Below, one piece after another: positions 11,795-57,215 of a stretch of 64,000 nucleotides of DNA. Location of the stretch: assembly GCA_023078555.1 (NCBI GenBank), contig CM041202.1:5938522-6002521 (forward strand), given 5' to 3'. A program made the translations under genes and the position numbers. The notes below the pieces were generated by a model. It searched no databases. It had not been told where the DNA came from and was given only the letters and a program-made list of their open reading frames with translations. Positions within the stretch are counted from its first letter, which is position 1; each line of letters begins with the position of its first letter. Source of the DNA: Ulva prolifera. Lineage: Eukaryota > Chlorophyta > Ulvophyceae > Ulvales > Ulvaceae.

Positions 11795-12429
11795 GCTCGC
11801 TCTGTGTGTTACAAGGACAAAGGCAGCAAGCCGGGCAGCACCGCGAAAGGAGCAAGCAGACGAAGCAAACACCAAGACACCCACGAACATCTCACCCATC
11901 ACCGGCGCAGCAAGCGACACAGATCCGCAGACCGCCAAGCACACACCCACACACCAGCACACACACGCACAGACCCACACACCCACAAACCCAAACCCAC
12001 AAACGCGCACGCACAAACCCCACGGCCGACACACAACATCACAACCACCAGCACCACAACGCCCGCCGCCGTACGACAGGGCCAAACCCAACACACTGCT
12101 GCCTGAGGCCGCCCATCATGGCCGCCCGATTGCCGGGGCCCGCCCTGGCCCCAAGACCCACCCCCACCCCACCAAGCCACAGCATACCACGCCAGCCCTG
12201 CACACCGCCGCGCAGCCCCGCCGGCCCACGCCGCACCGCACCCAGGACCCTGCATCGCCCAAGCCGTTCCGCAGTCCCCGCACATGCCAACGAAGGCATC
12301 CCGCACACCCATCGGACCCGGCCCAGCTGGAGTCAGAGGCCACAGGTCGGTGGCGTCAAGCGGACGGGGCGCCCAAGGGGCACCCCACCGCTCAGGCCGG
12401 ATGGCCTGTAAGCGGCTCGCTCTGTGTGT
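11795..12429 (-). mobile_element. Retroposon RB, 605 bp, with 15-bp target duplication
   Basis: The 15-mer GCTCGCTCTGTGTGT occurs at 11795-11809 and again at 12415-12429, flanking a 605-bp element (11810-12414). On the plus strand the element starts tacaaggacaaaggc. Other copies share exactly this end but stop at different points on the other side. Reverse-transcribed elements are truncated at their 5' ends, so the shared end is the 3' end and the element runs on the minus strand, ending gcctttgtccttgta. There is no poly(A). The body is CA/GT-rich and shows no convincing protein. Confidence 0.85.
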
Positions 12430-16412: not shown

Positions 16413-19400
16413 ATGTGCTTCCTCAGTGTGCTAGGCGGTCTTGTCGGCTTGTGCCGGCTCCTTCCGACTTGGCGTGCACACCGAGCATGCCGGGCTGTCG
16501 CCGTGCCAAGAGCCTCGATCGCCGCGGTCCTGCTGGTGCTGGCGATTCATTTTGACGGTCTAGGGAGAAGCATGGGGCAGGAGGCTGACTACGCTTCCGT
16601 GAGTTCTCCAGGAGAGCTGCAAGACGCAGTCAATCGGGGCGTGCGCCACATCATCGTCACGGCACACCTGGACATGGCATCGACGCCTCTTTCACAAGAC
16701 TCCAGAACTCAGGAAGACTTTGTTCTGTCAATTGTGCAGGCGCTAGAAGGCGGGTACACTCGCAGCATACGGGTACGTTGGGCTGTGTGACCCTCCAGCC
16801 GTAGGACATGAACTCGCGGTCTACTGGTACATGTCACTTTGCGGTTAAAGGCTTGCAAATGTAAATTCAACCTCGCTCACGTTCTTGCTGTTTTGGCTCG
16901 GGTATTTTGGTGCCCTGGTGTGCGACAGTGCCAGTCTGGAGACCTAGGCACACGTGCAGGGCAACTGCAGTACGCACGCTAGGGACGTACCTCCCGAGCC
17001 GTCCCTGCTATCCCCACGGCAGTGCATCATCACAGTGAGAGACAGCTTTCTCGATGTTGCCGTCGATGCCGCAGATGTGTGGCTCTCCGATCTGTACATC
17101 CGCGTCGCAAGCTGGGACGTGACACCCAGGACAGTGCTCAGGGCGGGGAGAGGAGACCTTTGGCTCACCCATGTCTCGCTCATTGGGCAAGGGGAACTCT
17201 GCAGAGGTGTTGAGGTACATGAAAAGCGAAGGCTTTTTGCGAGAGGTAACTCCCACTCACTCTTGACTCTGACTTCACACTTCCTGTGCCAAGCAGAATA
17301 AGCACACAGTCCACAGATCAGCCATACGGAACGCACAGTCTCTTCCTCTAGCACAGTGAAGACATCGTCGCTAATCTAGCAGCAGAATTGTATGTCTCAT
17401 AGGCCCACGCCTGCCCTTCCTCAACAGGCCTGTCAAGGCTCGTGGTACAATAGAAACCACTGCCTTGTCCTGCAGCGTAGCCCAGAAGGCCATATGCATA
17501 TACGATAACACGTGCCCGAGCAATTAACTATTGCGCTGTGTTGAATATACGAAGGCAAGCACGTCGACTGACGACACCTTGACGCTCTGATTCACAAAAA
17601 CACCACCCACACCTTGCCCCCGACACCCTCCCCGCATTGCCACAGCACAATCATTCGGCCGTTACCATACCGGACGTGTGCAGAGAGCACCATCACGGGA
17701 TTCAAACACACCCGCGACGCCGCGTTCCAGCTCCGCCCCGCGGCCACCGCCACCTTTGTCCGCACCACCTTCTCCGCAAACGAAGTCTCTCAGCGCTCGG
17801 ACCCCCTCGCCCCCGAGATCGTCCCCATCGGCCCGGACGGCGGCCTCCGCTCCCCCCCGGCCACGACCAGCCGCCGCAGCCTCACCGCGGCCGATGACAA
17901 CGCGGCCGCCGTGAGCTACCACGCATGCCGCTTCGAGAGCCGCTCAGCGCTCCCAGCGCACAGCGTGGCCGTCGACACGGCGCGGTGCCGCGTGTACAGC
18001 GACGGGTACGGGCCGCGGGTCTACGACGCGGAGTCGGGCCGCGTCAGCGGGCCGTGGGAGCTCGTCGAGGACCCGGCGGCGGCGGCGGCGGCGGCGGAAG
18101 TGCCGGCGGGGTCCCCGGAGGACATCTACCAGAAGCGCGGCTTCCCGAGAGAGGCGGACGTGGTGTTCAGCGAACTCGTGCAGGCGCGCTTCCCATGCGT
18201 AAAGTAAAGGAAGCTCGAATTTACGTGACCACTCCAGAGCACCCCCTCCTCCTCGTAGCTTACTATGCCGCTTCAGCGATCCAACGCTCGTATCTATGGT
18301 GTCAAAGAGGTAGAGATTCTTCTTTGTGTGTTTTGTCCGCTCACGTTGCCCGCACTCATCTGTGGCACATGCCTATGGCATCGGCCACGCTCCCATTTTG
18401 ACTCTTCCTGGCCGTCCCTTACAGTTGACCCCGGGCTGATACGTGCGTATGCCACTCCAAACAATCGAGCCGATGCTGGGTGCGACGGCAGGCCAACACA
18501 AGCCTGGTTGAGTGCTGCTGTGTTGCGAGGACAAGCCAGACAGGCGGAACCCTGCAGATGACACGGGCACGCCGCTAGCTGCACGGGCGCAGCTGTATGA
18601 AACGCAGCTTTGATACATGGCACGGGAGGAGGCAAGGGACACCGCAGACACAGGGAGCAGCTCGATAACAGGGTTACCATTGGACTCACAACGTAGCTGT
18701 GTGCAGGAGGAGGTCGCCGTGAGCGGGCTCCTCATGGAGATGGCGCTGCCGCTACCAGCCGCCACAGAGTACACCGTCCGGCCGCCCTCCGGCGCCGACG
18801 AGGCCGCAGCCGCTGCAGAGGGGGGTGAACCGGGAGTTTCGGGGTGGTCGCCGGTGAAGTTCGCGCTCGTGTTTGCGGTCGCAGGGGCCATCCTCATGCT
18901 TCTGCTCGGCATCGTCGGCGTGCTGCTGCGCGCGCTGATGCTGCAGAGGCGGAAGAAGCAGCAGACGTGTGACGCGCCAAAGTGGCCAGAGGTGCGCTGA
19001 GTCCCCCCTCCCCATGTCGCCTTGCACCGCGCAACACTGCATGAGCGGCCCTGGTCTGGCTGCTACCTGAGCGCAGCGCCGTCTCATTACGTTTGGGGAC
19101 GGCGACTGCGGGGGAAGATCACCCTCGTGTGTGCGCTGTGCGAGAGTCTCCAGCGCTCTTGTGCAGGATTCTGTGGGGGACGGGGAGCCACGCTGCGTCT
19201 CGAGCCTCCCGAGGCCGAGCCTCCCTGCAGACGAGTCTTTGATCGCAGTGTCGCTCGGTACCGGCACGACGCCCATGAGGAGTGCGTTCTCTCTGAGCGG
19301 CCGCGCACACGGCCCGCCCCCTCCGCCGTCGGCAGGCAGCGATGAGCCCCGCACCAGTCACCCCCCTAGCCCATCCCGCCCGGAGGGCCCGGGCCCCGCC

Positions 19401-22400
19401 CCGCCCCCCGCGTGGCCGAGCTTCAGCCGAGAGCGCGCCGCCGTCGGAACCGCCGGCTCTAGCCGCGCAGGCGGCGGCAGCCGCCGCTCCTCTACGGCCC
19501 ACGACCGAGAACCCGGCCCTGGCCTGTGCCCCCCCGCGGCGCAGCTACAACACGGTCACAACCCTGCGTACGCCATCGCGCAGGCCCCCGCGTCCGCGCC
19601 GGCGCCTGCGGCCCGACACCCCGGCCCCGGCGGCCCCATGTATATTTCCCCTCCAAACAGCCTGCCGCCGATTACCAGCGCCCGCGCACAGAAGCCGATC
19701 CGCCGCAGCGCGCAGTCGGCCGCTGCCGACGAGCCTACGCAGTCGCGCTCGCTGTTTGATGTCTACGCGAATCTGAACCGCTCCGTCGTCTTTCCCAACA
19801 TGTCGCCGGCCACGACGGAGCGCGGCTACCCTGCCACGGACGCACGCAGGCAGCCGCCGGCGTCACAACCGCAGCTGTCTCCCCGCTCCGACCCCCTGAA
19901 CACGCACGCTTGTGCCGTAGAGCCAGCCCCGGCTGACGTCTCTGAGCTCGCGAAGATCAGTTCAGGCGGACGAGGCAAAGAGGGGGGTGTATGGGACCGC
20001 GTCGGGACATGGGTGCGGACGAGCTCGCCGGCGAGCGGCGCCGCCGTGGACGACATGCATGCATCAATACACGCAGCCGCTGCGGCCGCGCCGGACGGCA
20101 ATGCGGCGTGGCGTGGCATTCCAATCTGGGGGGGCATGCATGCCGGCGACCACCGCGCGCCCACGTCGCCGCCGTCGGCGACCATGGGAAAGTATGGGGG
20201 AAGCGTTCCAGGTGTGCCGCCACGTTTCGCGGGGCCGCACGATGCGACGGGGCCGCGTGACACCGTGACACTCGACCCCCAGAGTGCCCCCCCAACCTCC
20301 CAGAGGCTAACTGTCACCGCGGAAGGCGAGGCAGGTCACTCCACTGCCATGCTCGGCGGCCCAGGGGGCCTGCCGGCGGCCGTCCCAGCCGCCGGCGTCA
20401 CGTCCGTCCCCCAGAACGTGCTCCTCTACCAGGGCGCAAGTACGGAGACGGGGGAGCTGCCGGAGGTGCCCCTGAAGCCGCCCTCCAAGGGCTCCCGGGC
20501 GGGGGGCCGCAGCGAGGAGCGGGCGTCGGCCGGGCTCGTGTCGGATGCCGGCACGCGCGCGCCGGGGGAGGAGTGGTGGGGGCCGAGCGAGATCGAGGCG
20601 CGGCGGACGCGGCTCGTGGAGCACCTAAACCACCCGGTCGCGAGGTCGCTGCCCGCTGGACTGATGAGCCTGGTGCCTGCCCAGGAGCACCGCGACGGCA
20701 GCCGTGCGCCCCCTCACTGCTTCCAACCTGCTGCGAGCCCTCCGGCAAAGTGAGATCTCTCTCGAACTAACCTCGAACTAAACTCGATGTATAATCATAA
20801 TATAATCATAATCAACTCGATAATCTTCTTAACTCCTGTGGTCCGGCTCACTGTCCTGGAGCGTGTGTTGTTTGTGTGTGGTTTCGTCGCTGCGCGGTTC
20901 GTGCGAGGTGGTCATGCTGCATGCATGCCTGCACGCGCCCGTCTCGGTGTGCGCTGTCTGTGATGTGTCGCCGCGTCGTGCTGGTTTGAACTGTCTGTAC
21001 TGCACAGCCTGCGCCTGCGGTGTATTGAAGCAATCCGATTTATGCATCAGGGGGGGGGGGGGGGGGGGGTGGCAAGCCGTGAGGAGGGGAGGGCATGCCG
21101 GCACCGCAGATGTACGACTGCTCCTCGGAGTTTGCCCATGAGCACCCATCAGCAAGCCCAGGGTAGGGGGCCTTGTGTGTGTATGGCTGCGGCCAGAGCG
21201 GGTGCTGCCGTGTGCGGTTGCGTGGGTGTGTTGGTCTGTGCCGCGTGTTAAGTAAAGTAAAGTAAATCTAAATTTACTGAGCCGTATCCTATTGGACATT
21301 GACAACTCCGAATTAACGGGACCACATATGCCGAAGGGGTAAACCACCTGGAAACCCCCCTCAGACGACCGTACGCAACTCACAGGGCCTCCTCCTGTGC
21401 TAAGCGAGGTGGTCACGTGCGGCCGTTTCGATTCCCCAAAGCGCACGCAGAATCGAACCCACGACCTCCTGAAACGGAGGGGGTAGCTGTGTTGTGACCG
21501 CGGTGCCACCTGCCTTGCTCGCTTTGTCCTTGTACCACACATCAGCAATCCCAGCAGGTGTGGGGCATGCACGATCTGCAGCAGGGTTGTTGTGCTCGTG
21601 TCTGCTGTCCTCGCTCTTCTCCCACGCCTCTGCAGTCAAGGTCAAGGGGATGCGTGGCTATGGGGGAGAGGGGCAGTGCAGGGATCGTTTGCGGAGCTGC
21701 TGCCTTTGGCAGTGAGAGTGGCAGTGGCTCTGCCATGAGGGGCAGTGAACGATCACATGCTTGTCTGCAGGGGGTGGGTGAATGTCTAGGGTGGAGTGTG
21801 AGAGGAGCCATGTATGCATACCAGAAGGAGCTGGCAGGCAGGTGGCATGTGGGATGCCCATCCCACTGAGAACTTCAGGCATGACTGTGATACAATAGTC
21901 GTAACCAAACATTGAAATATAGTGAACTCACTCCTTCACAGCCTGGTGTGCTGTGGTACCTGCCATGAGACATTGCTATGGGAAATTGCTTGTTGTGAGT
22001 ATTCTCTTGGAGGGTGGCCATTGCAAAATTTACTTACTGCAGCACTGGTGACCGCACTAGCACTAGTGACCGTACTGGTGAAGGCAAGGCACAACGGTCT
22101 GCGCAGGTGGCCCTGCTTGCTGCTCCTCAATGCGAGCAGACGCTGGAGACTGCAGCCAGTTATTGCTTAATGCACAGCACAAAATTGATGCATTCTGCCT
22201 TGTTGCCCTGTAGCTTTGCACATTTCCCACTCTGATGGGCCACTACACCAGTGTGTATAGGAAATGACCCTGTGGCTATGCCTGCTGTTGTTGGCAGGAT
22301 GGCCTCATGCTCCAACAAGAGCTATGGCAAGAGCTCAAGCATGCACTACAGTATCACACGTTTCTCATCAAACCCCCTGCTTCCATGCCCAGCAGGGGTC

Positions 22401-25400
22401 CTCCTGATTCCGACTGCTGCAGCTCACAGCTGTGCCACATAGCAGTCCCTGTGCCATACCTGCTGACAGTGCGCTTCAGTGATGCCCTCCAAAGTGCATT
22501 GGAGGCTGTGCCCCTGTTGCACTGCAAATGGTGTCCCCCTGTTTGTTTGACTCCGGTTCCTCATGACCTTCTCCATGTTTCTGCCATGCCTCTGAAAGTT
22601 CGCATGTTCAGAATCCAAATTGTTCTGATCTCTTCTTTCTCGATCTGTGAGGGTTTGTTTCGTCACTGGAGCTCACAGGGACCTCTGTGCCTAATGTGAG
22701 CAGTTGGGTGCTGGCTGGCCAGCTCAGCAGGCCAGCTCAGCAGCTGCTTAGGGTGTCAACCCTGAGACACTGTGCACAATGTTCAGCGTCAGCATGACCA
22801 CAAGGAGGAATGCAGCCACTTGTGTACCACAAGAACACAGCAATAACACTAATACCAGCAGTGTACCGCATCCAGGTGCACATTACTTTTTCTTGACTGG
22901 ACAAGTGCATCGCATTGCTTGTAGTCAGCCTGAGCCCCATGACACCTGCACATGACAGGACAGGCTGAGCTTACTGTTGAAAAGCTATCTGTGTGTGCAT
23001 TTACACTCAAGCCACCCTCCATTTCATCATTGATGATGTGCCAGAGGGTGGCTTTAGTGATCAAGCACATCAGCAACAGTATTTATAAGCAATGCTCCCA
23101 CCCCCATGAGTCGCAGCAGACAGCCACACAATCAGCCACAGCATACTCAGCAAAGCAAGTCAGTCTGCACTGCCAGCCTGCTGAGCACACATTCACACAT
23201 CTGAAAGTGCACTGTCCACCTCTGGTGATGCACACCCCCTCTGCTCATGGTTGACTCAGAGGCACAGGAGGTGACTATGCTCACCTGCTGAGCAGACAGC
23301 CACCCCTTGTAGACACACCCTGCCCTCGCTGAGCCCCACCACTCCTGCATTGCAAGCGGCATGAAACAGTGCAGTCCATTCAACATTGGCGATCGTTTGA
23401 TTTTAGGTGATCTGGCCGAGTCCGGGGCAAAGTGGAGTGCGGCAAAGTCGTGTCAAAGTTGTGACATGTCAACCAACCACGGATCCTTATTGGACTGCAA
23501 CATGCTCCGGAGGCGCATGATACACTTGACGTCGGTTGCGTGCAGTATAGTCACGACGACAGACCTATTGCGTTTGGTGCACTCCCGTGATATGATATGA
23601 ACTATGACTGCTGCACCTCTGTACGCTTGCACGCCGGCGCTCATGTCAGTGGAATCCCGACCGACCTTTGCAAGATGTGATACGCCCCCGCCCCCGCCCC
23701 TCACTCCACGGCCGCGGAGTGCAGAGTACACAGTCGTCCAGTTTGCGCGGCGCGTGCACGCCGGCGGCGAGGTCGCCGTGAAGTTCTTCCTCGAGGCCGA
23801 GCACTTCCAGGCGGAGCGCCGCACGCAGTACGTGCCCGCGCTGCGCGCCGCGCGCCTGCCGCTCGAGAGCGTTCACGGCAACGAGGACGGCGCCCTCACC
23901 GACGGCCACGGCCAGCCGCTGCCGCCGTGCATCGTGATGCCGCGGGGCGTGCCGCTCGAGGAGTGGATGCGCCGCGAGAGCCCCGACATCCTCCACGCCG
24001 TCGCGGTGCGCCCCCCCTTCCGTCTCCCCCAGCACGCCGCGCCAGATGCGCAGCAGGCTCCTGCAGCCTTTGAGCTCGGTTTGCACCGCGGCGGCCCATG
24101 CATGATTGTGTGCGGCACAGATCGGGTCACAACGCAGACACTGCGTGAGCCTCCCTCGGCACCTCTCCTGCAAGCCCTTTACTTATCGCGTGTGCGCCTC
24201 GCAGCCGCTCACAACCGGTCAGGGATCGGGATCGTTTCACATGGTCGCTTGAGTAGTCCCAGAAGGTTGGTGGTTCGCTGAATGCTGTGAATTTCTGCAG
24301 GTCAGCTTGTGCTCGAACACTCTGCACCATGCTGCCATCATGTAGTGCTGTGCCACAGCCATGCATGCTGCAACCCTGTTGTCCAACTCTACGGAATCTG
24401 AATTTGAAGGAACAGATCGTGGAACGTACTGCGACTACCGACACACCAGGTGCATCTAGCCAGCCAGCATGTGTATCTCGAGGACGGTACCTCTCCGCAA
24501 TTGCCGGTGTGGTTCATGCTGTTGCCTCGAAGCTGCTGCTGCATGAGGGCACATTTGTCCGGGTCATGTGGGTCATTTCGGCCTTAGTCCGAACAGATCT
24601 GCTGGCGACACCTGTGGGGTCGACCAGTGTTATGATCTTTCGTGAATCACGAGCGTAGTATGCGGGTTGCGGAGCACAAGCGGGTTGACCGGAAGTAAGT
24701 GTTGGGAATAGGGACAGGAGTAGGTCGTGACAAGGGCCGATTCTTGGAGCTGCCAAGGACCAGGCATAGTAGCTCCGGTGTTGCATTCCCTCTGAGCTCC
24801 GGCTGACCCAAGGGGCCAGTGGTATAGCGGCCATATCACTGGATTGCCACAAGCAGTATGTGATACAAGGACACAGCCGGAGTGGCCGGCAGCACCGCCA
24901 GGGCAACGAGCAAGCGCCCCAGCGGCCCAACACTCGCACGCCAGGAGAGTCACCCAGTCGCTGGCCACAGCCGTGTGTGGACTCGTGTAGAAGCTGGTGT
25001 GTGGACTTGTGTAGACGGTGCAGCACTGGGAGCAGCGCGATTGACTTGACTGACACCACGCATGCAAACATGCACCATATGGTGCACAGGGCCCTGCCTC
25101 TGCCCGTGCCACTGCAGTGCTGCAGCCTGTGTCACAAGGACAGGGGGGCTGCAGCCTGTGTTACAAGGACAAAGGCAGCAAGTCGGGCAGCACCGCGAAA
25201 GGAGCAAGCAGACGAAGCAAACACCAAGACACCCACGAACATCTCACCCATCACCGGCGCAGCAAGCGACACAGATCCGCAGACCGCCAAGCACACACCC
25301 ACACACCAGCACACACACGCACAGACCCACACACCCACAAACCCAAACCCCCACACGCGCACGCACAAACCCCACGGCCGACACACAACATCACAACCAC

Positions 25401-28349
25401 CAGCACCACAACGCCCGCCGCCGTACGACAGGGCCAAACCCAACACACTGCTGCCTGAGGCCGCCCATCATGGCCGCCCGATTGCCGGGGCTGCAGCCTG
25501 TGTGCACACCCCTTCGGCATGTGTGGTCCTGTTAACTCGGATTTGTCAATGTCCAATAGGATACGGCTCAGTAAATTCAGATTTACTTTGCTTTACACCT
25601 GCTCCTGCCGATGCATGCTCTCATGCTATCACCCTCTTGCGATGCACAAATTCGGTTGCTGGATAAGGCTCCCAGATGAGGCTCCAACCACAGCCACACA
25701 CAGCAGGTTGGCCATTCGCATGATGGCTCTGTATGTGCACATCGTCTCACCACTGTTGTTTCTTTGGCATGCGAGTGTGTGCATTGTGTGTGCAGTGGTC
25801 ATGGTTTGTGTTGTGGTTTGTGTTGGGCCCGTGTTGGGCCCTTGCGTGGTTCTCTCTTAGTATAACAAAAGAGTGAACGGGAGAAGACAAACAGCATCTC
25901 ATCAGGCCGTTCTGTCTTCGTTGGTGGCTATGGTGCGACTGGGTGTAACGCGTTATAACGTCCTGTGTTCCTGTGCGGTTCCTGCGGTGATACCTGCTTG
26001 TCCGACTGTGTCCTTGTACAACTGCTCTCAACACTGGCAGTTGTAGCAGGTCGTGTTGCAGACGAGATTTGTGTTTCCGGGGTTCGACCTTCTCACATGT
26101 GCAGCTGCTATCTCCCTGATGCACATTGCGCACACGGGAATCTCCCCCAAACCTCTTACGCGGACGCCATGGCCATGCATTTGGTCAAGGAGGGGGCTCC
26201 TCGTTCCGGCGAACGTTAGCCATGATTCAGTCAGCCTGGCCCTGACGGCCTCAAGCACATCCGGCGCGCCTGCACAATTCGTGCGTACAGTATTCACGCA
26301 TGTTGTGGCGTTGACGCGGTGTCTTGCCCTGCAGCTGTGCATGCAGTCAGGCCTCATAATCGAACGGTTCTCTGGCACGCATGCCTGCTCTGCTTCCTCG
26401 GCCCAACCAACAGGAAGCGAGGGGAAGGCGAACTCAGCAACCGTCATATTACACATGGGAACCGGCTGTTCCACGCGTGGCCACGTGGCTGTGCGCTACA
26501 GTATCTCGATAGCCCCGCTGTCTCGAGATCGAGGCGGCTCGCTGCTGCTCCTGCGAATACATGTGAGATATCTAGAGATGTTGCACTGCCCGACCACGAA
26601 GGTAGCGCTCTGGATCCGCCTCGCAAAGGTAGAGATACACCGAAGGCAATCTCGTGAATACACGCCCGGCAGGTGCCGACCTGGGCGTACAACGACCATC
26701 GTTTGACACCGCTGTACGCTGATCACCGCATCTCTACGTCACACCCCGTCGCCACATCTGTCATGATGGCGTTGGACACGCGGTGCAGATGGCTCGCGCT
26801 GATGCCATGTACGTGCCGAACATTGCATGTCCGGCGCGCCTCACCACGCGAGTGTCGCGCGACCCGCACTCGCGACGCCTGTGCACCCGACTTTAACGTC
26901 AACTGAGCTGCTCGCCCGGTCATCCTGGCTCCTGCCGACGTTCATGCAGTTCGATTGGTGCGGGGCTGTGCGTGCAAGCGTCGCTCACTGCAAGCGCACA
27001 CAACAGTGAAAGGTCTGCGCAGTTGTGACTTGCGCAGACCTTTCACTGTTGCGAGGGGTGATGTCGCGTTGCCGATGCCCCTGGGCGCTGCAGTGTATGC
27101 TATCCCTGAGGTAAGTGCGGAGTACCCTAGAAGGCCCACCAAGTCGTGGCCAAGTTGCCACTCGCCAATTAACAGCTCGCCTGCAGGCGGGCGCCCACTC
27201 GGTGGGCATCATCACCAACACCGCCGTGCACCGCTTAGGCCGCTCCATGCATGAAAGTGCACTATGATGGGAACGCGGAGGTCATGCCAGAGGTCATGCC
27301 AAACAGCTGCCCTGGGCTGTTCACAAAAATGGGGTGCACAGACTAGCGACGACAACGTTCCTCCTCTGGATCCCTTCGATGCCCACAACCTCAGCACTGA
27401 CCACAGCCTGCATGCAGGCGCTGGCGGCCATCACGAAGCGGCTGCAGGTGCTCCATGACGGTGGCTACGCACACCGCAACATCAAGCCCTCCAACATCCT
27501 CTGGCTCCCGCACTCCAACTCCTGGGCGCTCACCGACCTGCGCTGCGCGGCGCGCATCGGCGAGCCCGCGGCCGCGGCGCGCGACCTGCGCCTCGCGTAC
27601 GCCGCCCCGGAACTCGCGCCGCGCCCCGGCAGCGGCCGCCGCAACGGCGGCGCCCGCTTACAGCGCGTCGAGGCCGCCTCAGACGCGTGGGCCCTCGGCG
27701 TTATCGCGGTGCAGCTGCTCACCGGCTCCTGCCCGCTGGACGATAGCACCGCCTCGAGCCGCAAGGAGGTGCGCCCGTCCGCCCATGCACGCGTTAAGCA
27801 CGCCTCCATGGACTGGACCTCGTCATTGAAGTAGCAAGTGGCATCGGCTGGTGTGGCCTCAAATGGCTCCCCGGCGCGAACGGCAGCTGGATGCACCACC
27901 CCCTTCATCTCAACGCATCAGTGGCGGCAACTCTGCCAACCCCAGCATTCTGTCCCATCTGTCACATCATTCTGTCACAACTCCGCAACGAAATCTGTCT
28001 GCCTGCGGCGTCACAGGGCTCTGATCACATGCGGCGCAGGGCGGCTCCTCCAAGCCACATCTTTTTTTATACTGTTTGAGCGCGGCGGCGGCATGCATTC
28101 AGTGCGGCAGCCGTGTAAACGGGTGTACACGTGTGTCTGACAATGATGTGTGCTTTTGGCGTGCAGTTGCTGGCGCAGCTACAGGGCAAGGCGGAGCTGC
28201 CGTGGGAGGGGTGGCCGCGGGAGATCCGGCAGAAGCTCGGCGCGCTGCGCAAGCCCGTGCTACGCCTGCTGCAGCGCTCCCCCGAGGCGCGGCTCAGCAT
28301 GGCCGAGCTCGGCAACGCCTGCCTCGCCGTCTTTGACGCCTCCACCTGA
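16413..28349 (+). CDS. Receptor-like transmembrane pseudokinase with beta-helix ectodomain
   Basis: Eight exons in consistent phase: 16413-16772, 16960-17245, 17684-18198, 18707-18991, 19167-20703, 23725-24005, 27418-27768, 28167-28349; 1265 residues. A hydrophobic segment (ASIAAVLLVLAIHF) near residue 40 should act as a signal anchor. Residues ~60-380 resemble a right-handed beta-helix (WLSDLYIRVASW, WLTHVSLIGQG, AAFQLRPAATATFVRTTFSAN). One transmembrane helix spans ~439-461, followed by RRKKQQ. A ~510-residue Pro/Ser/Ala-rich linker comes next. The kinase-like domain has the VAVK lysine (~1014), HRN in place of HRD (~1107-1109), KPSN, DLR in place of DFG (~1128), APE and SDAWALGV. Without the HRD aspartate it is probably inactive or weakly active. 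Introns 5 and 6 (3.0 and 3.4 kb) carry repeats. The exon 5-6 junction is the least certain. The ligand is unknown. Confidence 0.82.
21050..21069 (+). repeat. Poly(G) run, 20 bp
   Basis: Twenty G in a row lie in intron 5 of the pseudokinase gene. Its length is likely to vary or to be miscounted in assembly. Confidence 0.9.
21249..21540 (-). mobile_element. tRNA-derived SINE with (TTTAC) tail
   Basis: On the minus strand this element has an A-box-like tggcaccgcgg (21508-21498), a CCTCC/GGAGG stem, and a B-box gggttcgattc (21460-21450) at tRNA-like spacing. About 190 bp of body follow, ending in cagtaaatttag and tttactttactttac. This is the layout of a tRNA-derived SINE with a pol III promoter. 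The sequence before the A box is the common LINE terminus in opposite orientation, either part of the SINE or the site it landed in. It lies in intron 5 of the pseudokinase gene. Confidence 0.65.
24816..24852 (+). repeat. Copy of the dispersed CCAGTGGTATAGCGG motif
   Basis: This is a near-exact copy of the motif at 1968-2003. It is followed within 20 bp by a retroelement terminus (gatacaaggacacagccgg) in intron 6 of the pseudokinase gene. Confidence 0.7.
25145..25503 (-). mobile_element. Retroposon RB, 5'-truncated, with 17-bp target duplication
   Basis: The 17-mer GGGGCTGCAGCCTGTGT is at 25145-25161 and 25487-25503. The 325 bp between are nearly identical to the matching part of the copies at 11810 and 53550. 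Its truncated end stops after gccgcccgattgcc, well short of the other copies. It lies in intron 6 of the pseudokinase gene, and its high identity to the others suggests recent movement. Confidence 0.85.
25508..25600 (+). mobile_element. SINE 3' portion
   Basis: This is the reverse complement of 21249-21345, from ccccttcggcatgtgtgg through ttgtcaatgtcc to cagatttactttgctttac. It begins right after the target duplication of the adjacent retroposon, so that element probably landed in or beside an older SINE. Confidence 0.7.
27001..27051. repeat. Inverted repeat, 21-bp arms with 9-nt loop
   Basis: The arms 27001-27021 and 27031-27051 are exact reverse complements (outer end caacagtgaaagg) around the loop gttgtgact. 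It lies in intron 6 of the pseudokinase gene, about 370 bp before exon 7. A transcript would form a strong hairpin. Confidence 0.95.
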
Positions 28350-49397: not shown

Positions 49398-51444
49398 ATG
49401 ATCAGGTGGTTCCTTCTACAAAATCGCGCTGGGCGCACACGCCTTGCCAAATACTACGTGCCAGTGGATGACGAAGCAAAGAGGCGAACAGAGTATGACG
49501 TATTCAAAGCTCTCAGCTCTCGAGAGAATAAGTGGTCGAATATCGCCGAGGTAAGTTGTTTTCGGCATGATGCCTGCTTTGCTTTGTCCATGTATACAGC
49601 GGCTAAGAGCCTGATAGCATGAAGAATGCACATTCTATAACATGCATGGTCAATTGTGAGTGGGAGTCATGCTGATCACGCTGTTTGCCAAGTCACGTTG
49701 ACAACGGTGGCCATCCTGTCAGCCAAACAAACCGCCATGCAGTTCCAAGACTACAAGCTGGTGTTCCGAAGATATGCTCATCTTTATTTCATTATGTGTC
49801 TCGACATGGGCGATAACGAGCTAGCGGCGCTGGAGGCCATCCACCTGTTCGTTGAGATCCTGGATCACTTTTTCACCTCGGTCACCGAGCTGGACATTGT
49901 CCTGAACTTCCACAAGGTAGGCACCTGCAACCTTTCTCATTGTTCTGTATCGCCATGTAGAGTAGCGCTTGTACAGCAATTTGTCAAGTTTCTATCATCC
50001 TGTACTCTGAGCAGTACTTCCAAGTTGAGCCCGCCAGCTGTCAGCCCAGATCTCATGTTCGCACCTTCAAAGCACTATCTGCACCTGCATCGGCATGCCA
50101 GCATTGGCTCATCTGAGAGCAGACCGCATCAAGCACATGTCTATCTTTGTCTTCCAGCTCCAAGACTTCCAGCAAGGGCAAAGCTGTCCTGGCCGCTAGA
50201 GCTCGAAATGATCCTGTTGATAAATCGAAGCCATAATGCACTTTGGCGTGGTGGCACATACATGCATCCCCTCTTGGGGAAAGGGCTGATGCGGCAGCAC
50301 TGTTTGGGGGACATTTACTTTTCTTTTCTGTCGTCGTGCCTACATGCGAGCCTGAAGCTCTGTGGTGGCATCATGGCAGCATCTACAAGTGTTGTACATA
50401 GACCAATGTAGCATTGTGGTTGGTACGTCTCACGCTGCAGCGGTGTGGGCATATCGGCACAGCCACAGAGCCGCTGACAGGCACAGCCTCGCACACGCCT
50501 GTGCCCCTTCTGGCTGGAGCACCAGTGTTGGGTCGCTTTGCAGCATTTCCAGGACTGCTACCCCGAAATTAGACCTGAATATTCGGAAAAATGTTCCATG
50601 TGATCGGGCCAGATGACCCAACACTGTGCTCCAGGGCCGGGGGTGCACGTCGGTGCTGACGCCGCTCAGCTTCCGCAATGCTGCGAGGACGTGCACTACA
50701 CCCCCTGGCATCACCCCCTGGCATCACCGGCTTCCCGCCCTCTGCCCTTCTGACACATGCACTTGAACACTCACTTTGCCAGCCACCACCAGCGTCCAGG
50801 GCGGGTGCCGCGGGCCGGAGTCCGGTTGCTCCCAGCCTACAGCGCTGCTGCCAGCTCACCATGTCTATCAGAAACCCTCATGCGATCTAGTGTGGAGTCC
50901 GACCCGTCAACGTGTTTGATGCGGTCGTGTGGAAGGGCTGGCCCGATGGTGTACCCCTTTGGCATGAGGTCGTCCGGGGTTGTGAATGTCCTGTAACGGG
51001 TCGGCCCAGTAGATCCAGATCGCTTTGAAAGCCAAGAGTGTCTTTTGCTGCCTGCTTGTGGCTACACAATCATGCATACGTCGTTCCTGTTCTTGATTTG
51101 CACACTGTTCCTGCGGTGCTACCTCCCCCCCCCCCCCCCCCCCCCCCCCCCCGCCCATTACCGTGTAACACGCACAATCATGTTCTGCGCATCACAACAC
51201 CCATGCGCTGCTCTGCACATTGCAACACACATGCATGCTCTGCACATTGCCACACACATGCATGCTCTGCACATCATAACACCCATGCATGCTCTGCACA
51301 TTGCAACACACGTGCGCTGACCTGGTGCAGGCGTACCTCATCCTCGACGAGTTCATCCTCGCGGGGGAGCTGCAGGAGAGCAGCAAGCAGGTCATCCTCG
51401 AGCGCATCAGCCAGCTCGAGGGCCACGGCCTCGCCCCCTCCTGA
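49398..51444 (+). CDS. AP2S1: AP-2 complex sigma subunit
   Basis: Three phase-0 exons: 49398-49550, 49743-49916, 51331-51444; 146 residues (family ~142). This is the small sigma chain of the AP-2 clathrin adaptor, which helps hold the tetramer together and binds acidic dileucine cargo signals in endocytosis at the plasma membrane. The start MIRWFLLQNRAGRTRLAKYY, the core YKLVFRRYAHLYF, the stretch DNELAALEAIHLFVEILDHFF, and the end AYLILDEFILAGELQESSKQ are diagnostic; AP-1 and AP-3 sigma differ at the N-terminus. The tail is a few residues longer than usual. Donors are gtaagt and gtaggc, without the GTGCG type common in its neighbours. The 1414-nt second intron carries a MITE, a poly(C) run and a tandem array. 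Confidence 0.96.
50523..50626 (-). mobile_element. hAT-like MITE in AP-2 sigma intron 2
   Basis: This is 104 bp with 12-bp inverted ends cagtgttgggtc and the near match gacccaacactg. The interior is the reverse complement of the copy at 58967-59068. The flanks tggagcac and tgctccag are not a direct duplication but almost mirror each other, so the perceived inverted repeat runs past the element. Confidence 0.75.
51125..51152 (+). repeat. Poly(C) run, 28 bp
   Basis: Twenty-eight consecutive C lie in AP-2 sigma intron 2, 178 bp before exon 3, on the transcribed strand. Confidence 0.9.
51185..51312 (+). repeat. Tandem array of 26-27 bp units
   Basis: About four to five units of the type ctctgcacattgcaacac plus acatgcatg, starting near 51211, 51238, 51264 and 51290. 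The array ends about 20 bp before AP-2 sigma exon 3 and so replaces the usual polypyrimidine tract region. Confidence 0.85.
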
Positions 51445-53535: not shown

Positions 53536-54115
53536 CACCAGTGTGTGTGTTACAAGGACAAAGGCAGCAAGTCGGGCAGCACCGCGAAAGGAGCAAGCAG
53601 ACGAAGCAAACACCAAGACACCCACGAACATCTCACCCATCACCGGCGCAACAAGCGACACAGATCCGCAGACCGCCAAGCACACACCCACACACCAGCG
53701 CACACACGCACAGACCCACACACCCACAAACCCAAACCCACACACGCGCACGCACAAACCCCACGGCCGACACACAACATCACAACCACCAGCACCACAA
53801 CGCCCGCCGCCGTACGACAGGGCCAAACCCAACACACTGCTGCCTGAGGCCGCCCATCATGGCCGCCCGATTGCCGGGGGCCGCCCTGGCCCCAAGACCC
53901 ACCCCCACCCCACCAAGCCACAGCACACCACGCCAGCCCGGCACACCGCCGCGCAGCCCCGCCGGCCCACGCCGCACCGCACCTAGGACACTGCATCGCC
54001 CAAGCCGGTCCGCAGTCCCCGCACATGCCAACGAAGGCATCCCGCACACCCATCGGACCCGTCGGACCCCGAAGGCATCCCGCACACCCATCGGACCCGC
54101 ACACCAGTGTGTGTG
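53536..54115 (-). mobile_element. Retroposon RB, 552 bp, with 14-bp target duplication
   Basis: CACCAGTGTGTGTG occurs at 53536-53549 and 54102-54115. The element between (53550-54101) starts ttacaaggacaaagg, as in the copies at 11810 and 25162, and matches the 11.8-kb copy closely for about 510 bp. Its other end differs and contains a short internal repeat (cgaaggcatcccgcacaccc, twice). Confidence 0.85.
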
Positions 54116-56446: not shown

Positions 56447-57142
56447 TGGACGCCGCGGTCGCTGCGTGTAACTGCTGCGCCAATGATGGGCCAGAGCTGG
56501 CGGGTCGCTGGAAGTGGCGTCCGCGTGTATGCATGCGCATGCATGTGCACAGCGAGGCGGGGCACCCCGTCTCATTCTGGCAGTTCACTCTGTGAGAGCC
56601 GAACCATGTACACCGCCACCACGCGGAGGTCCAGGTGGCGTGTGGGCGGCGCGGGTGACGTAAATGTGTTTCTTATATTATGATCTCTAGATGATCTCTC
56701 CTCAATGCTGCAACATGTAGCTGCGGTGTGGGCTGCTGCAGCCCAGGCTAGCTCTGCTGCCTCATGCCCTACACAGCCCATGCGGGAACACCGAGCATGG
56801 GTGCCCCACCAGTGCCCGCGGCCTGGGCTATCGCCTTTGTGGCAGTTGCCGCACCGTCCAGCTCCAACACTAGCAGCGAGCAATCTGAACCGGGTGCAGC
56901 TGGGGTGTCCTGCGGACTTTGCAGTGGAACAGCACGACCTGAAGGCTGTTGAGAGCATATGCCGCATCTCACACCTGCCTCGATGCATGCGTGTCCGTTG
57001 CCACAGCTGATCGAAATGACAATGTCGCGTTGCTCAACACCGTCTTACTATACAGACATACCTCAAGCTGTGTGACTAAAGAGATACAGACTCACCTCCA
57101 GCTGCAATCATATCGGTGCAGCAGTGGTAAGGCCCGCAAAAG
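56447..57142. other. Intergenic, nothing recognised
   Basis: Short frames only. It contains a cluster of RY-alternating sequence (tatgcatgcgcatgcatgtg near 56530). No repeat copy of the main families was noticed. Confidence 0.5.
57138..57141 (-). terminator. Pol III oligo(T) terminator
   Basis: TTTT on the minus strand begins two bases after the tRNA-Arg discriminator base. Confidence 0.8.
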
Positions 57143-57215
57143 TGACGGAACCAGGGATCGAACCTGGAATCTTCTGTTCCGTAGACAGATGCCTTATCCA
57201 TTGGGCCATACCGCC
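57143..57215 (-). tRNA. trnR-ACG: tRNA-Arg (anticodon ACG)
   Basis: A 73-nt minus-strand gene with no intron. The acceptor arm is GGCGGTA with TTCCGTC (one T-T mismatch, one G-T pair) and discriminator A. The A box is TGGCCCAATGG. The anticodon stem TCTGT/ACAGA encloses CTACGGA, giving ACG, which is read as Arg (A34 normally becomes inosine). The T arm is CCAGG TTCGATC CCTGG with B box GGTTCGATCCC. TTTT, a pol III terminator, follows at 57141-57138. CCA is not encoded, as expected for a nuclear gene. Confidence 0.96.

Follow-up and report, generated by a model that had tools for sequence, protein, structure and literature searches.

A gene in the window, which is the whole 64,000-nucleotide stretch analysed in this study (C7:5938522-6002521 of a genome of 88.9 Mb in 44 contigs), may encode a type I receptor within a large chlorophyte family of receptor kinases, one whose kinase has turned into a pseudokinase and which serves as a regulatory co-receptor of active paralogues; we consider the chances of this reading as a whole to be about even. 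The gene occupies 16413-28349 on the + strand, where eight exons in one open frame form one gene of 1265 aa. Exon borders were fixed by comparison with the paralogue L053 (C1:4350800-4355800). The eight exons of the first-pass annotation are thus all present in a single frame, but some of their ends shifted when set against L053 (those of exons 2, 5, and 6), with exon 2 corrected to 16960-17245, the end of exon 5 to 20703, and the start of exon 6 to 23725. The start of exon 2 was placed by the paralogue sequence beginning GNC, and the end of exon 5 aligns with paralogue exon ends reading LGPNDRRQGG. An earlier model, in which exon 5 ran to 20749 and exon 6 began at 23720, was dropped because the glycine-loop exon of the paralogues stops sooner, at the position of a GTGCGC donor in the window. 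All seven introns have the form GT...GCAG, with the donor GTGCGC in four of them.

The first exon (16413-16772, open frame, donor GTACGT) encodes a signal-like N-terminus and the start of the ectodomain (aa 1-120), matches the L053 exon SNPSQFQRAVRQGVNHIVIAEHLDM, and has a counterpart in L155. The ectodomain continues through exon 2 (aa 121-215), which shows 30-38% identity to five paralogue exons with an invariant Cys and Trp, and exon 3 (17684-18198; aa 216-387), which shows 25-34% identity to three paralogues. Exon 4 (18707-18991; aa 388-482) encodes the juxtamembrane region and a transmembrane helix, followed by exon 5 (19167-20703; aa 483-994) with a low-complexity intracellular linker and the first half of the glycine-loop region. 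The kinase N-lobe, including the VAVK Lys (23781-23783) and the alphaC Glu, lies in exon 6 (23725-24005; aa 995-1088). Exon 7 (27418-27768; aa 1089-1205; Pfam Pkinase E 1.3e-13) carries the catalytic loop HRN, KPSN, DLR, APE, and the F-helix Asp, while exon 8 (28167-28349; aa 1206-1265), with 40% identity to the last exon of L053, contains the end of the C-lobe and the stop. Within intron 6, two perfectly complementary 21-base arms (27001-27021 and 27031-27051) form an inverted repeat around a 9-base spacer, resembling a hairpin. The same intron holds one copy (25155-25454) of a 300-bp repeat that is found in the window in three copies 98-99% identical to one another (the others at 11803-12102 and 53544-53843); this repeat is a mobile or repeat element that spread recently. 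Elsewhere, the window contains a clathrin adaptor small chain exon (49641-50408, + strand; Pfam E 7e-22) and a tRNA-Arg (acg) gene (57142-57215, - strand). Nuclear Rubisco small subunit genes, each split by an intron, were found on the large contigs C1 and C9; their best solved-chain matches were the Chlamydomonas chains 9hvm and 1gk8, with land-plant chains ranking below these, and on this basis we treat the host as a chlorophyte.

Hydropathy identified a hydrophobic stretch close to the N-terminus (residues 29-47) and a single strong transmembrane helix (residues 439-457; peak value 2.87), in agreement with the single helix claimed by the first-pass annotation, and a hydrophobic stretch was read by eye at the matching position in L053, L043, and L054. 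The disordered linker of about 510 residues that had been proposed corresponds to a low-complexity linker of about 512 residues composed of 57% P/A/S/G/T. Hydropathy and homology thus predict a receptor-kinase layout, with an ectodomain, one transmembrane helix, and an intracellular kinase in one polypeptide, and the N-terminal hydrophobic stretch combined with the single helix points to a type I orientation. The order signal, ectodomain, transmembrane helix, linker, kinase is identical in L053 and L155, and the layout of L054 is like that of the window gene and L053.

Whether the ectodomain and kinase belong together was examined across the genome using the L053 ectodomain as the query (E up to 0.01), which returned 58 pieces grouped into 36 loci. 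A same-strand kinase catalytic exon lay within 12 kb downstream of 25 of these loci, compared with a mean of 0.93 pairs and a maximum of 4 when loci were placed at random on the same contigs (2,000 trials), while only 3 of the 36 loci had an opposite-strand kinase exon in the same range. The 36 loci and 25 pairs include the window gene and one probable duplicate pair (C7/C23), and the list of 160 kinase exons on which the pairing relied is incomplete. With 25 of 36 loci paired where about 0.9 would be expected by chance, it follows that the ectodomain and kinase form one gene, as had been claimed. A pair of adjacent genes, one for an ectodomain protein and one for a kinase, fused by reading across intron 5 would fit the length of that intron (3,021 bp) and the 11 of 36 ectodomain loci for which the incomplete list gives no kinase exon of matching strand in the 12 kb downstream. 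However, the same order and strand recur in 25 of 36 loci, L053 follows the same plan, and exon 5 closes with linker and glycine-loop sequence that the kinase exon needs, all of which make such a fusion very improbable.

The ectodomain matched no family at cut-off in Pfam or NCBIfam and no PDB profile. Hydropathy autocorrelation was computed over 35 lags for four aligned ectodomains. The z values were 1.87 (lag 25), 2.98 (lag 34), and -3.33 (lag 4), and no clear rung periodicity emerged in these four sequences, the signal at rung length being non-significant. The beta-helix-like ectodomain of the first-pass annotation therefore stays unconfirmed by Pfam or PDB profiles and by rung-length autocorrelation, and both a beta-helix fold and a carbohydrate (sugar) ligand are guesses. 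A different ectodomain is present in the gene at C1:7198124 (L156, C1:7197900-7205900), which has long proline-rich repeats resembling PTTPVDPAP, then a weak match to a fasciclin-like domain (E 0.007, below cut-off) and, before the linker, a hydrophobic segment resembling a transmembrane helix. Since a relative of the window kinase is thus found behind another ectodomain, an exchange of ectodomains is suggested.

Exons 6-8 match Pfam Pkinase (PF00069; E 1.5e-13, 51.2 bits against a gathering cut-off of 31.7) and, judged by homology to L053, span both lobes of the kinase. The best PDB sequence matches of the kinase were RSK, PknA, and MELK, which establish the kinase fold together with Pfam and leave membership in RLK/Pelle unsettled. 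The substitutions reported earlier, HRN for HRD (27472-27480) and DLR for DFG (27535-27543), are both read in the sequence, as are the ATP-binding Lys of VAVK, the Asn of KPSN, and the Asp of the DFG position. Three motifs are altered in total (glycine loop GGQG to GSQYT, HRD to HRN, and DFG to DLR), while the Lys, Glu, Asn, DFG Asp, and APE are unaltered. That the first-pass annotation saw no clear glycine-rich loop is explained by intron 5, which splits this region. Once spliced, it reads HRDGSQYTVVQFA, compared with RRRGGQGVVQF and RRAGGNGAVQF in the uninterrupted relatives L035 and L063, respectively. The glycine loop also varies among other relatives, with GQA and GQS common and no such pattern in L012 and L033; because some relatives with HRD and DFG vary here, the glycine-loop change by itself says little. 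The beta3 Lys is present in every aligned row that covers the site. By its residues the window kinase is a predicted pseudokinase, in which the HRD Asp is Asn and the beta3 Lys and DFG Asp are kept, and HRN combined with the retained Lys, Asn, and DFG Asp constitutes the pattern known from HER3.

The same retained residues (Lys, Glu, Asn, and DFG Asp) could also belong to an atypical but active kinase, in which the HRN form retains phosphorylation, at a low rate or through a different mechanism. Kinases of the HER3 type can keep weak activity, which counts against the pseudokinase reading; excerpts of PMC4718504 describe weak trans-autophosphorylation of HER3 in vitro, and the abstract of PMC9403797 describes Arabidopsis ILK1 as the sole pseudokinase of plants whose activity has been confirmed. 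In the window gene, however, three motifs are altered together, the glycine loop and the Phe and Gly of DFG having changed in addition to the catalytic base, and we regard an active kinase as unlikely, although it is the strongest of the competitors to a pseudokinase.

The kinase belongs to a large family. Exon 7 matched at least 150 places in the genome, including the window gene and three probable C23 duplicates (150 of 257 candidates scored), and exon 6 matched at least 146, including the window gene (150 of 175 candidates scored); the weaker exon 7 matches may come from neighbouring kinase families. Among 109 distinct sampled loops, the catalytic-loop Asp site was occupied by D in 94, N in 7 (five HRN, one HCN, and one HTN), A in 5, G in 2, and S in 1. 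HRN is consequently not lineage-wide among these paralogues, a question that the first-pass annotation had raised; it had also named HRD paralogues together with GAC reads at this site as grounds against its reading, and the paralogue half of that pair is what these 94 loops provide. DFG was exact in 82 of the 109 loops and its Asp was kept in 100, so that 78 loops were canonical, 31 departed in some way from the HRD/K/N/DFG set, and 21 lacked the HRD Asp or the DFG Asp. An in-frame stop was present in two of the 109 rows (L130 and L140). Departures from DFG were found in 12 of the 15 loops without the HRD Asp versus 15 of the 94 loops with it (Fisher 1.6e-6, with kinship ignored), and loss of the HRD Asp therefore appears to go together with departure from DFG. 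The 109 loops leave out nine of the 80 fetched exon-7 loci, which were identical over 42 residues to others and all had HRD and DFG, as well as L122 (HRA, DFD), L133 (HRD, GFG), six C-lobe pieces lacking the loop, and the listed places that were not fetched. With the 11 left-out loci (the nine duplicates, L122, and L133) restored, the Asp was kept in 104 of 120.

Several dozen kinase paralogues form dense arrays on both strands at C5:7.2-8.7 Mb, where the sampled members are mostly HRD/DFG and some copies are degenerate (HCN, HCD, and HRS with GFS or SFT). A cluster at C7:0.56-0.73 Mb contains several members with HGA, HRA, HRG, or YGG combined with DFD; these make up a subgroup that resembles pseudokinases and has a distinctive motif. 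The series of kinase matches at C23:14-27 kb and C7:626-639 kb are nearly equal in spacing and scores, and the former looks like a second haplotype or a duplicate of the latter.

Exact DNA patterns searched over the whole genome, with other kinase families included, recovered HRN[L/I/M]KPxxN at five places and the HRD form at 184, while reversed control patterns gave zero matches genome-wide. All five HRN matches read CGC AAC, which fits the one-base change from GAC to AAC that had been proposed; given this shared codon pair, a G-to-A change in a CpG would yield all five, and HRN probably originated by such a transition in the CpG across CGC|GAC. A single base would likewise suffice if HRN were a sequencing or assembly error; yet several bases differ over the three motifs and four further HRN places exist in the genome, which renders an error in HRN and DLR extremely improbable. 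L057, the HRN copy on C5, shares 62 of 67 positions with an HRD copy and groups with the HRD copy L008 (branch support 97/87), and a single clade of five HRN copies was rejected in a tree of 38 rows and 191 columns (p 0.0062). These two results indicate that HRN arose at least twice in this genome. Without the C5 copy, the 38-row tree did not reject a shared HRN origin of the remaining four (the window gene, C2:1364836, C2:5072573, and C4:5177106; p 0.138), nor one origin for the window gene and C4:5177106 (p 0.44), and a 64-column tree of the 109 exon-7 rows did not reject one origin of all five (p 0.47). The nearest relative of the window gene in the 38-row tree was C1:7198124, with support of 86/91 that is not strong and a kinase that is itself atypical (HRD but KPGH and DYA). 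Ectodomain matches to exons 1 and 2 and a transmembrane stretch read by eye accompany the HRN copy at C2:5072573 (DFA), and a transmembrane stretch, also read by eye, lies in frame upstream of the kinase at C4:5177106 (DLE). Receptor-like HRN copies thus appear to recur in the genome.

It is also possible that the gene is decaying, as a paralogue freed of constraint and heading toward a pseudogene. Its ectodomain-to-kinase distance of 9.2 kb is the longest among the 25 pairs, introns 5 and 6 measure 3.0 and 3.4 kb with a recent 300-bp repeat copy in the latter, its end branch is 0.91 versus a median of 0.35, and copies of the kinase bearing stops (L130 and L140) exist in the genome. Against this, 1265 codons run without a stop or frameshift and seven splice pairs are regular, even though exon 7 identity to the closest relatives is no more than about 52-56%. 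GC3 is very high in the three kinase exons (0.93-0.97, compared with 0.82 for the whole coding sequence, and with a total intron GC of 0.52-0.66). In addition, when 23 conserved positions were defined from 79 canonical family members, the window gene kept 13 of the 15 fold positions outside the catalytic motifs and 5 of the 8 within them, a small contrast that is insufficient alone as proof of selection. Decay is considered quite unlikely, though less so than the fusion or the error.

Under the co-receptor reading, the kinase domain would still fold and phosphate transfer by it would be poor or absent. Since the Lys, Asn, and DFG Asp are kept, ATP and one metal ion would be allowed, as in HER3, and the domain may bind ATP in this way. 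The ectodomain would bind an extracellular or cell-wall ligand, and the intracellular domain would pair with an active paralogue, regulating it allosterically or keeping it inactive. With 78 of the 109 loops canonical, the simplest role is that of a co-receptor for a ligand, which would switch an active paralogue on or hold it back. The scaffolding favoured in the first-pass annotation could be the role, and a regulatory effect on an active paralogue is no less likely, given that many of the kinase relatives are canonical and some (L053 and L054) have an identical layout. The identity of the partner as an active paralogue is a guess.

Excerpts of a 2024 review (PMC10868138) show 1 to 4 receptor-like kinases per chlorophyte (for example, Chlamydomonas reinhardtii about 4, Ulva mutabilis 1), compared with at least 150 exon 7 matches in the one chlorophyte genome studied here; the counting rules of the review may exclude this family. 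None of the matches listed (the best 8-20 in the open-licence literature, as titles and abstract openings) on chlorophyte receptor kinases, algal kinase expansions, or beta-helix or fasciclin kinases described the receptor-kinase family of the window gene, in which a kinase is joined at 25 loci to a single ectodomain type that matches no Pfam family. The 21 of 109 loops without the HRD or DFG Asp are close to the predicted pseudokinase share of about 20% among Arabidopsis RLKs given in excerpts of PMC4718504. Tentatively, chlorophytes could have evolved their own receptor-kinase system with interchangeable ectodomains (one containing cysteines, another with proline repeats and a fasciclin-like part), whose recurrently inactivated members would be co-receptors of active paralogues; such a system would parallel the land-plant RLK network and HER3-HER2 pairs but have arisen independently of them. 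We regard this broader picture as possible, with the balance tilting against it. If receptors and their pseudokinase partners did evolve separately in algae, the pseudokinase share could be tested as a general property of receptor-kinase families.

Several known systems bear comparison with the window gene, and HER3, which acts as a heterodimer with HER2, is likened to it by residue pattern alone. HER3 has an intact DFG and an ectodomain unrelated to that of the window gene, ILK is cytosolic and has no ectodomain, and plant RLKs of the BIR2 type combine an LRR-type ectodomain with an RLK/Pelle kinase. According to excerpts of PMC4718504, HER3 (ErbB3) is a receptor in which, as in the window gene, the HRD Asp is replaced by Asn while the beta3 Lys, catalytic-loop Asn, and DFG Asp are kept, and it binds ATP with one Mg and works through heterodimers. 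It is, however, a receptor tyrosine kinase that has lost the alphaC Glu (same excerpts), whereas the window gene keeps this Glu and has DLR. ILK likewise has lost the catalytic Asp and kept the DFG Asp with a basic residue at the Gly site (DVK at the DFG position in ILK, DLR in the window gene), but it lacks the catalytic-loop Asn that the window gene keeps (excerpts of PMC4718504). Plant RLK pseudokinases such as BIR2 resemble the window gene as pseudokinase regulators with a variable glycine loop in a large green-lineage receptor-kinase family (excerpts of PMC4718504 and PMC10868138). The LRR receptor kinases of brown algae are similar in being receptor kinases of independent origin within algae (excerpts of PMC8307928), but they have an LRR ectodomain and belong to another lineage. 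By analogy with these systems, the window pseudokinase would act on an active paralogue in the way that HER3 acts with HER2 or, in excerpts of PMC10868138, BIR2 with BAK1.
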